Positions 19,733-21,982 of a stretch of 64,000 nucleotides of DNA are shown in pieces (the stretch's first letter is position 1; each line of letters opens with the position of its first letter). Source of the stretch: Ilumatobacteraceae bacterium (GTDB taxonomy: Bacteria > Actinomycetota > Acidimicrobiia > Acidimicrobiales > Ilumatobacteraceae); the NCBI GenBank assembly GCA_033344875.1, contig JAWPMO010000001.1, positions 434,001 through 498,000 of the forward strand, written 5' to 3'. The notes beneath the pieces were generated by a model. That model worked only from the letters and a program-made list of their open reading frames with translations. It was not told the DNA's origin and made no database searches. A program made the translations under genes and the position numbers.

Positions 19733-20386
19733 GTGGTCAGCGTGCTGGAGCAGGTCGGAACCGTCGGTGAACTGCACGGACTCGATCCCTTCGCCGGTGA
19801 CGAACCGGTCGACCCGGCGGTGTGGTGGTGTCGGCCGACCGACGACGCGATCGTGCTCGGGTCACGTCAACGCGACGACCTCGTCGACGAGGCAGCCTGT
19901 CGTCGGGCCGGGCTGGCGGTCGTGCATCGCCGGTCGGGCGGGGGAGCGGTCGTCATGCGTCGTTCGACGACCCTGTGGATCGACGTCGTGCTCCCCGCCG
20001 GATTCGCGCCCGACGACGTTCGGGGTTCGATGGAGTGGATCGGTGGACATTGGCGTGATGTCCTGACGCCGATCGTCGGCGCGCCGCTCGCGGTGCATCA
20101 GGGTGGCATGGAGTGCTCGGTGTGGTCCGACCTGGTGTGCTTCTCCGGGGTGGGCCCCGGCGAGGTGCTGCTCGGGTCGGACAAGCTGGTCGGGCTGAGT
20201 CAGCGACGGACCCGACGCGGCATCCGGATCCAGGGCCTGGTCTACGGCGCCTCGGTGGCAGGGGAGTACCCGCACGTGCTGCGTGGCGCGCTGCCCTCCG
20301 AACCACCGGCCGGCCAGGCGTGGCACGCCGGACTCGACGGTGCCCGTGTCGCCGCCGAACTCGCCGATCGAATCACGCCCGTGTAA
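19733..20386 (+). CDS. Biotin/lipoate ligase-fold protein (LplA-like)
   Basis: A 217 aa protein with the biotin/lipoate ligase fold. RRSGGGAVV matches the substrate-binding RRxxGGGxV motif, and Lys in DKLVGLSQRR aligns with the catalytic Lys of lipoate ligases and octanoyltransferases (usually K-x-x-G-x-A). Whether it transfers lipoate, octanoate or something else is open, since the residues after the lysine differ from standard LplA. No lipoyl synthase or lipoyl-domain gene is nearby. Start GTG 19733, 23 bp after the HNH gene; GTG 19742 is also in frame. Confidence 0.75.
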   Translation: MVSVLEQVGTVGELHGLDPFAGDEPVDPAVWWCRPTDDAIVLGSRQRDDLVDEAACRRAGLAVVHRRSGGGAVVMRRSTTLWIDVVLPAGFAPDDVRGSMEWIGGHWRDVLTPIVGAPLAVHQGGMECSVWSDLVCFSGVGPGEVLLGSDKLVGLSQRRTRRGIRIQGLVYGASVAGEYPHVLRGALPSEPPAGQAWHAGLDGARVAAELADRITPV

Positions 20387-20415
20387 TTCGCGCGCAGCGC
20401 GCGCAGTACTGCGAT

Positions 20416-20438
20416 CCGGTCCCCGGACCCCGGACCGG
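20416..20438 (+). terminator. GC-rich hairpin after the ligase-like gene
   Basis: CCGGTCC (20416-20422) and GGACCGG (20432-20438) form a perfect 7-bp stem with a 9-base loop. A second GC repeat (GCGCGCAGCGCGC, about 20390-20402) lies just upstream. Together they may isolate the dcw operon from upstream transcription. No T-tract follows. Confidence 0.45.
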
Positions 20439-20454
20439 TCAGTGAGCAGCGAGT

Positions 20455-20518
20455 ACGGGGCAAATAGGGGGTAATTGGGTCGATTAGGTTGACTTTGGTG
20501 ACCGCGCAGCGTCATACT
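20455..20518 (+). promoter_or_regulatory. mraZ promoter with 10-bp phased repeats (candidate MraZ operator)
   Basis: Four pentamers start at exact 10-bp steps: TAGGG 20465, TTGGG 20475, TAGGT 20485 and TTGGT 20495; a weaker ACGGG lies at 20455. MraZ is known to bind direct TGGG-type repeats separated by 5 bp upstream of its own gene. A good promoter overlaps them: -35 TTGACT (20489-20494) and -10 CATACT (20513-20518) with an 18-bp spacer. The repeats therefore sit across and upstream of the -35 box, fitting autorepression of the dcw operon. Confidence 0.65.
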
Positions 20519-20600
20519 TGCCGCCACGGGAGGTGCTCATGGCTCTCGGGTGAGGCAGCAGGTCCATGGGCTCTGATCGTTGGAAGGTCTGGCACGAACC

Positions 20601-21035
20601 GTGTTCGTCGGCGAATACGACCGCAGTGTTGACGGCAACGGCCGTCTGGCTCTGCCGTCGACCTTTCGGGACCTGCTCGGTGATCGCTGTTACGTGACCA
20701 TCGACCCGGGTGGCTTCGTCGCCATCACGACCGTGGCCAACTTCGAAGAGGACGCCGCCAAGCTGCTCGACGAGGTCCGCAACGGCATCCGCCCAGAATC
20801 GACACTGCGCAACTTCGGTGTGAACTCGTCGATCGCTGCCATCGACAAGCAGGGCCGGATCACGCTCGACGAACCGAGCCGCAGGCACGCCGGGATCCAG
20901 CCGGGTTCGCAGGCCATGCTCGCCGGTGCGATCAGCAAGCTCGAGGTCTGGCGCCCGTCCCGGTACGCCACGATCCGCGGCGAGGACGCGGTCGTCGAGC
21001 CGTCACGGGTCTGGCCCGACGAGGAGGACGCATGA
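20601..21035 (+). CDS. mraZ: Transcriptional regulator MraZ
   Basis: A 144 aa protein with two AbrB/SpoVT-like DNA-binding repeats: DRSVDGNGRLALPSTFR (about 7-23) and AAIDKQGRITLDEPSR. MraZ forms ring-shaped oligomers that bind direct repeats upstream of their own operon and adjust dcw expression. GTG 20601 places the conserved MFVGEYDRS at the N-terminus, as in homologues. An in-frame TTG at 20580 has no support. It is the first gene of the dcw cluster and overlaps rsmH by four bases. Confidence 0.95.
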   Translation: MFVGEYDRSVDGNGRLALPSTFRDLLGDRCYVTIDPGGFVAITTVANFEEDAAKLLDEVRNGIRPESTLRNFGVNSSIAAIDKQGRITLDEPSRRHAGIQPGSQAMLAGAISKLEVWRPSRYATIRGEDAVVEPSRVWPDEEDA

Positions 21036-21982
21036 GCGACTTCGACCACGTCCCCGTGATGCGCCAGGAGATCGTCGACGCTCTCGCTCCGACGCCACCC
21101 GGCGTCATGGTCGACGCGACCCTCGGGGGTGGGGGCCACAGCGAGGCGTTCCTCGAGGCTCGCGACGACGTCCGGATCCTCGGTCTCGACCGCGACCAGG
21201 ACGCGCTCGACTTCGCGACCCGACGGCTGGAACCGTTCGGCGAGCGCGTGATGACCCACCGGTGCCGCTTCGACCAGCTGCGCGAGGCGTTGGACGCACA
21301 CGACGTCGACGGGATCACCGGTGCGCTGTTCGACCTCGGCGTGTCGTCACCGCAGCTCGACCGGCCCGAGCGCGGGTTCTCGTATCGGCACGACGGCCCG
21401 CTCGACATGCGCATGGACGGCGACGCGCCCTGGTCGGCCGACGACGTCGTGAACGGCTACGCCGAAGCCGATCTGTCCCGCGTCATCCACCGCTACGGCG
21501 ACGAGCGGTTCGCACGGCGCATCGCCGCGGCGATCGTCGCCGCGCGTCCGATCGAGTCGACGACCCGACTCGCCGAGGTGATCACCAGCGCGATCCCGGC
21601 ACCGGCGCGACGTACGGGTGGCCACCCCGCCAAGCGCACGTTCCAAGCCATCCGGATCGAAGTCAACGGCGAACTCGACGCGTTGCCCGACGCTCTCGAC
21701 CAGGCGATCGAGGCCCTCGTGCCCGGTGGACGGCTCGCCGTGCTCTCGTACCACTCCGGCGAGGACCGGATCGCCAAGGAGCGGATCCGTGCCGCGGAGA
21801 CCGGCGGATGCGAGTGCCCGCCGGAGCTGCCGTGCGTGTGCGGAGCCGTCAAGACCGTACGGATCGTGCGCGGGGTCCCGAAGCGGCCCGGCGCCGAGGA
21901 ACAGAGCCGGAATCGTCGAGCCAGCTCCGCCCGCCTGCGGGTCGCGGAGAAGCTCGACACGAGCAGCGAGAGCGTCGTCTGA
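21032..21982 (+). CDS. rsmH: 16S rRNA m4C1402 methyltransferase RsmH (MraW)
   Basis: A 316 aa SAM-dependent enzyme that N4-methylates C1402 of 16S rRNA in the decoding centre. It shows HVPVMRQEIVDAL at the N-terminus, the SAM motif DATLGGGGHSEAFL, DLGVSSPQLD, RMDG and a Lys/Arg-rich C-terminus. A double Cys cluster (CECPPELPCVCG) is present. It is second in the dcw cluster, overlapping mraZ (ATGA) and ftsL (TGATG). Confidence 0.96.
   Translation: MSDFDHVPVMRQEIVDALAPTPPGVMVDATLGGGGHSEAFLEARDDVRILGLDRDQDALDFATRRLEPFGERVMTHRCRFDQLREALDAHDVDGITGALFDLGVSSPQLDRPERGFSYRHDGPLDMRMDGDAPWSADDVVNGYAEADLSRVIHRYGDERFARRIAAAIVAARPIESTTRLAEVITSAIPAPARRTGGHPAKRTFQAIRIEVNGELDALPDALDQAIEALVPGGRLAVLSYHSGEDRIAKERIRAAETGGCECPPELPCVCGAVKTVRIVRGVPKRPGAEEQSRNRRASSARLRVAEKLDTSSESVV

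Follow-up and report, generated by a model that had tools for sequence, protein, structure and literature searches.

In many bacteria, MraZ is encoded at the start of the division cluster; a ring-shaped oligomer counts among the traits of its family. In E. coli, its operator reportedly consists of TGGG-type boxes with a 10-bp period before mraZ, as Eraso et al. are said to have described in 2014. Our uniform box caller detected four boxes in E. coli K-12, all with G at base -1 (the leading base of the box), and the MraZ of this strain has Lys13. An excerpt of PMC7761207 reports the arrays of B. cenocepacia and E. coli downstream of the -10 element and describes a repeated GTG motif as conserved in the MraZ sites of distant bacteria. 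The Mollicutes site is given as (AAAGTGKN3)3 (Fisunov et al. 2016, as cited in excerpts of PMC5282649 and PMC8475190), and MraZ-mediated repression has been reported in E. coli and M. genitalium (excerpt of PMC8475190). The MraZ of M. genitalium has Lys at the position aligned to residue 13. Among the matches listed in searches of the open-licence literature, none stated a residue-to-base rule for MraZ, and no paper with MraZ in its title was among the matches listed for open-licence full text; the work behind the cryo-EM structures of M. genitalium MraZ (9R4J, 9SZ7) may describe the contact.

The array upstream of mraZ and its conservation

Reading of the window (the whole 64,000-nt stretch analysed) revealed five GG cores upstream of mraZ, beginning at 20457, 20467, 20477, 20487 and 20497 and spaced by exactly 10 bp (Table 1). 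The TAGGG, TTGGG, TAGGT and TTGGT repeats that the first-pass annotation had placed at 20465, 20475, 20485 and 20495 lie exactly there, and the weaker fifth repeat that it had suspected at 20455 (ACGGG) proved to be a true member of the array, with its GG in register in nine genus genes. The array shares 10-bp TGGG-type boxes with the E. coli operator, but base -1 is mostly T here (A, T, T, T, T across the five boxes) and MraZ has Asn13. The Mollicutes site, as excerpted, likewise consists of 10-bp direct repeats, but its GTG core, described as conserved elsewhere, is not kept in this array. Judged from the sequence, the array is in kind an ordinary MraZ operator, with at least three direct repeats of 10-bp period before mraZ, and we read the missing GTG core as a variant tied to Asn13. 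The canonical box, GTGG (form AAGTGGGG, as opposed to the form without the leading G, AATTGGGG), has its G replaced mostly by T in this genus, and the box is better written as N-T-G-G-G-N every 10 bp.

Table 1 Features of the mraZ upstream region and the first cluster genes, with positions in the window
Feature	Position	Strand	Remarks
MraZ box 1 ACGGGG, putative	20455..20460	+	most distal; weak letters, register kept in nine genus genes
MraZ box 2 TAGGGG, putative	20465..20470	+	base -1 = T at 20465
MraZ box 3 TTGGGT, putative	20475..20480	+	sequence, pattern scan, genus register
MraZ box 4 TAGGTT, putative	20485..20490	+	shares first two bases of -35
MraZ box 5 TTGGTG, putative	20495..20500	+	inside promoter spacer
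-35 TTGACT	20489..20494	+	promoter scan; 18-nt spacer to -10
-10 CATACT	20513..20518	+	promoter scan
mraZ	20601..21035	+	GTG start inferred (N-terminal MFVGE alignment); in-frame alternative TTG 20580
residue 13 codon AAC (Asn)	20637..20639	+	covaries with box base -1
residue 84 codon CAG (Gln)	20850..20852	+	twin of residue 13; covaries with base +4
rsmH (mraW)	21032..21982	+	next cluster gene; TIGR00006 318 bits, cut-off 154.3

The claimed overlap with the -35 element and spacer of a good promoter was confirmed by a scan of 20350-20620, which found a single pair with 9 of 12 consensus letters; this position differs from that downstream of the -10 element reported for B. cenocepacia and E. 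coli (PMC7761207, excerpt). The gene mraZ lies directly before rsmH as the first gene of the division cluster. Its product matched PF02381 at 46.7 bits (cut-off 23), with the best stretch only in the second half, and five NCBIfam equivalog models with E down to 9e-15; since the latter scores all fall below the equivalog cut-offs (54.6/162; 40.7/98.35), we regard it as a divergent MraZ. Both D-x-x-x-R halves are present, and D11, G14, R15, D82 and R86 are invariant among 19 aligned MraZ sequences; D82-x-84-G85-R86 repeats D11-x-13-G14-R15, so that residue 84 is the twin of residue 13. The predicted model had a pLDDT of 89.9, and all 16 structure matches with E<=0.001 were MraZ/UPF0040 chains, including the M. 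genitalium promoter and 4-box promoter complexes (9r4j, 9sz7), which share this fold and contain a Lys13 protein.

The array could be a chance repeat, given the 68.6% GC of the window. The exact pattern of four T-N-G-G with a 10-bp period occurred once when both strands of the window were scanned, against a first-order Markov expectation of 0.005 per window (at least one occurrence in 1 of 200 simulated runs), and with at most one mismatch there were three matches against 0.36 expected, two of them being this array. Across periods 6-15, exact matches appeared only at period 10 (one, + strand) and period 15 (four, - strand). The 4-box score in the 300 bp upstream exceeded that of every one of 200 dinucleotide shuffles (p=0.005, the lowest attainable value). 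Together with this expectation, the register conserved in the genus refutes a chance origin, which we regard as having next to no probability.

MraZ matches were obtained for 36 of 41 relatives and, by taxonomic level, in 9 of 10 genomes of the genus, 140 of 150 of the family and 357 of 395 of the class. Retention of the array before mraZ in close relatives, the check proposed by the first-pass annotation, held: all five cores were in register in every genus genome whose mraZ upstream region could be read (9 of 10). TTGAC or TTGAT, which served as alignment anchor, directly follows box 4 in the nine genus genes, and their -10 element is CATACT in seven, AATACT in one and different in one. The array of one genus member (L007) was missed by the stricter uniform caller and passes the shuffle test. 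In the class, the score was significant against 200 shuffles at p<0.05 for 142 of 163 upstreams and at p<0.01 for 110; two further loci were too short for this test.

The uniform caller (p<=0.02) detected an array in 285 of 376 non-redundant mraZ upstreams and none in 89, two being too short; the loci fetched came largely from the top matches of their searches and do not form a random sample. By group, arrays were called in 143/190 Acidimicrobiia, 53/57 of the class of L197, 34/39 Anaerolineales, 27/29 of the order of L198, 11/29 of the order of L201, 5/9 of the class of L233, 11/22 others and 1/1 E. coli. Removal of 33 identical duplicates from 409 genes had left these 376. Left out before counting were pattern-scan matches that were loop-2-only, chance or non-cluster (L199, L207, L209, L216, L219, L230, L235, L237, L239, L240, L244 and L211) and five genes whose start could not be placed (L169, L170, L254, L262, L425).

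Comparison within the genus also separated the two parts of the original reading: an MraZ-type operator over the mraZ promoter stood, but the T(A/T)GG alternation did not, as it is not conserved even within the genus. The idea that the alternation itself is the recognition code of the operator can draw on its presence at 20465-20498 and on L007, the three middle boxes of which read T-A-T; against such a code, A-T-A-T at position 0 occurs in none of the other eight genus genes, whose strings include ATTTC, TTTTT, CCTTC and CTTTT, and we hold it to be extremely unlikely. The consistent departure from the canonical box is instead the preceding base, T for G, which, as far as sequences can tell, follows MraZ residue 13.

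Base -1 of the boxes and MraZ residue 13

The caller was applied uniformly across genes with base -1 unscored; the register of a single box may be off by one within G runs. Classification of the genes by residue 13 revealed G at base -1 in 74.5% of boxes for Lys13 (264 genes, 189 arrays, 804 boxes), A in 63% and G in 24% for Arg13 (30 genes, 29 arrays, 117 boxes), and A in 44%, T in 44% and G in 6.5% for Asn, Ser, Thr, Ala or Gly13 (77 genes, 65 arrays, 262 boxes). This genome has Asn13, and the other genus members partly Ala or Thr13; with its clade removed, the small-residue class had G in 8% of 139 boxes. Per gene, among the 283 in the tree, at least half of the boxes carried G in 169 Lys13 genes and not in 19, and in 2 non-Lys genes and not in 93.

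The same association was seen within single groups. Lys comparison genes had G in 113/124 boxes in Anaerolineales, 22/35 in the order of L201 and 11/15 in the class of L233. In the class of L197 (Acidobacteriota set), genes with Ser, Ala, Gly, Thr or Asn13 had G in 3/105 boxes, those with Arg13 had A in 35/48 and G in 13/48, and the three Lys13 genes had G in 7/9, while Arg13 genes of Acidimicrobiia had A in 39/69. Where Lys13 was kept and the next Gly changed (L191, L279, L319, L325), G was present in 14/16 boxes. Base composition was rejected as the cause of the shift, because Lys13 arrays in the order of L198, with a mean of 27% GC upstream, keep G in 79/86 boxes while T occupies 66% of the 123 boxes of this genome's clade (56-58% GC).

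Within the class, base -1 tracks the MraZ residue that stands two places ahead of R15, which prompted a prediction, set down beforehand, that a Lys-less MraZ elsewhere would have T, not G. Scanning the genome collection with a sequence pattern yielded 51 matches; the scan is no census, because the pattern admitted only Asn, Ser, Thr, Ala, Asp or Gly codons ending in C or T within a fixed surrounding. Outside this genome's clade, 15 loci from 14 organisms or genera encode a plausible MraZ whose loop 1 lacks Lys; these are not 14 independent origins, because L212 and L231 group on the tree and L203, L214 and L225 belong to one class. L211, named in the prediction, was later excluded by eye, its upstream being unlike a division cluster. 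Seven of the 15 loci had a significant array, with G in 7 of 30 boxes (L197: T,A,T; L202: G,A,C,A,G; L212: T,G,T,A,A,T; L218, Asn13: G,A,G,A; L231: T,C,G,C,G; L233: T,T,T,A,A; L241: A,A). "Not G" (in under half of the boxes) was true of six of the seven, the exception, L218, being half G, but the predicted T failed as a general rule, with A in 61% against T in 24% outside this genome's clade.

The association also has exceptions beyond the 19 Lys13 genes without a G majority. The Lys13 gene nearest this genome's clade (L060) already has G,T,T,T, and the change of letter may therefore have preceded that of the residue. Lys13 genes nearest the Arg group of Acidimicrobiia had G in only 48% of 27 boxes, and the first box of Arg13 arrays had G in 62% of 29. 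By eye, L225 (Thr13) and its relative L428 (Asn13) carry G, in arrays that are not significant.

Several observations were made alongside these counts. In the class of L225, 18 of 28 genomes had two or more MraZ matches, with Lys13 in some of them and Ala, Asn or Thr13 in others; arrays were called in 4 of 47 upstreams (L427-L473, outside the 376), and comparison of the paralogues was set aside because these were too few. Genome G726 has two MraZ-like genes with Phe13 and Trp13 (L404, L405) beside an Asn13 copy (L387), and the uniform caller found no array upstream of either. Before mraZ of a Gammaproteobacterium with Ser13 (L232), a 10-bp TGTG repeat appears by eye to replace TGGG, as if the core had changed; the array caller did not find it significant.

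Residue 84 and tree-independent pairs

An unprompted scan took the 279 genes that have three or more boxes (effective number 97) and compared protein columns filled to at least 80% with 8 box positions. The strongest pair overall was residue 84 with base +4 (adjusted R2 0.52), followed for that base by residue 17 (0.41). Residue 13 was the best column for base -1 (0.405), the next being residue 36 (0.32). Gln84 boxes had G at base +4 in 66% of 825 and Lys84 boxes A in 98% of 146, with 47 of the 48 Lys84 genes coming from the class of L197. A was also frequent with Val84 (71% of 24 boxes) and Ile84 (58% of 12), mixed with Ala84 (45% of 58) and Ser84 (38% of 42), and Asn84 leaned to T (57% of 21).

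Tree-independent pairs were drawn on an MraZ tree (FastTree, a short protein, columns 13 and 84 omitted), the deep branches of which are unreliable (L233 and L241, from different phyla, were joined). For residue 13 with base -1, a mean of 5.1 of 7 pairs agreed, 0.0 disagreed (rounded; a few pairings had one) and 1.9 were undecided (median p 0.0625, range 0.03-0.375). For residue 84 with base +4, 2.9 of 4 agreed, 0.1 disagreed and 1.0 were undecided, and for Arg-A against Lys the values were 1.7, 0.0 and 0.3 of 2. The crossed pairs were without clear association (13 with +4, 1.6 against 1.1 of 7; 84 with -1, 0.2 against 0.2 of 4). Independent origins thus lend modest support to the sequence association.

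The operator could be real while residue 13 and base -1 are linked by shared ancestry, through drift in a few clades without contact. The small number of independent origins (12-13 changes along the MraZ tree and 7 supported pairs), the scores of residue 36 with -1 and residue 17 with +4, and the T boxes of L060 despite Lys13 all fit this explanation. It has to contend with the recurrence of the pairing in Acidimicrobiia, the Acidobacteriota set, Anaerolineales and a planctomycete, with Arg-A arising twice, with two of the three top links falling on the twin residues 13 and 84 and on opposite flanks of the box, and with the lack of clear association in the crossed pairs, and it appears unlikely to us. 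In MerR regulators, correlated residue and base columns often correspond to contacts (PMC5045206, excerpt); our reasoning is of the same kind, in a different family.

We favour, with good confidence, the reading that 20455-20500 would be an MraZ operator in which base -1 is set by residue 13 (Lys-G, Arg-A, small-A/T) and base +4 probably by residue 84. A wider two-letter code across bacteria has, in our estimate, about an even chance of being right: residue 13 would read -1 and residue 84 would read +4 (Gln-G, Lys or branched aliphatic-A, perhaps Asn-T), with the operators of whole lineages rewritten to match one-residue changes. If one residue does set one base, MraZ sites would become predictable from the protein where the standard motif fails, and the locus would offer a clean example from nature of joint change in a regulator and the operator that it governs itself by.

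Proposed repression and the mraZ leader

Under the favoured reading of the array as an MraZ operator, five N-T-G-G-G-N boxes in 10-bp steps lie on one helix face across the -35 element and spacer of a sigma-70-type promoter that serves mraZ together with the division and cell-wall genes behind it. Most boxes of this genus have exchanged their leading G for T in step with Asn13 for Lys13 in the first D-x-x-G-R loop. The outer box bases are symmetric about its centre, as residues 13 and 84 are in the protein halves, and the simplest reading is that each loop would touch one flank. An MraZ oligomer would most likely sit on several boxes at once and keep RNA polymerase off, and published work suggests that MraZ would thereby limit its own cluster. 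The position over the -35 element and the spacer points to repression by steric hindrance, in line with reports on MraZ from E. coli and M. genitalium, and with the published MraZ work makes autoregulation of mraZ most likely; MraZ may instead activate this promoter.

The repeats might also bind another regulator, or represent promoter architecture (an extended -35 or a bend) unrelated to MraZ. MtrA binds the mraZ promoter of the actinobacterium Dietzia, as an excerpt of PMC9602371 states. An alternative of this type, which we consider very unlikely, is opposed by the presence of the array before mraZ in several phyla, by its covariation with MraZ residues, and by the published MraZ sites of E. 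coli, B. cenocepacia and Mollicutes, which are described in the excerpts as GTG-core repeats.

Further observations concern the transcribed leader. A leader reading frame (ATG 20539, then GCT CTC GGG TGA) was rejected, its ATG being absent in L002, the genus member most similar by MraZ. The segment 20527-20558 contains a hairpin followed by GAGGCAG, and Rfam gave no match over the leader up to E=1. Of 121 family leaders, 36 carry GAGGCAG, compared with 3.4% of mononucleotide shuffles, and the stems before it pair in spite of their differing sequences (examples are L004, L007, L009, L011, L016, L065, L126; best stem within 50 nt, taken without a shuffle control). The hairpin with GAGGCAG is possibly an undescribed leader RNA. 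Over the whole window, Rfam gave one match, at 2630-2711 to RF02464 (Actinobacteria sRNA Ms_AS-4, 81.7 bits), which is unrelated to the array.
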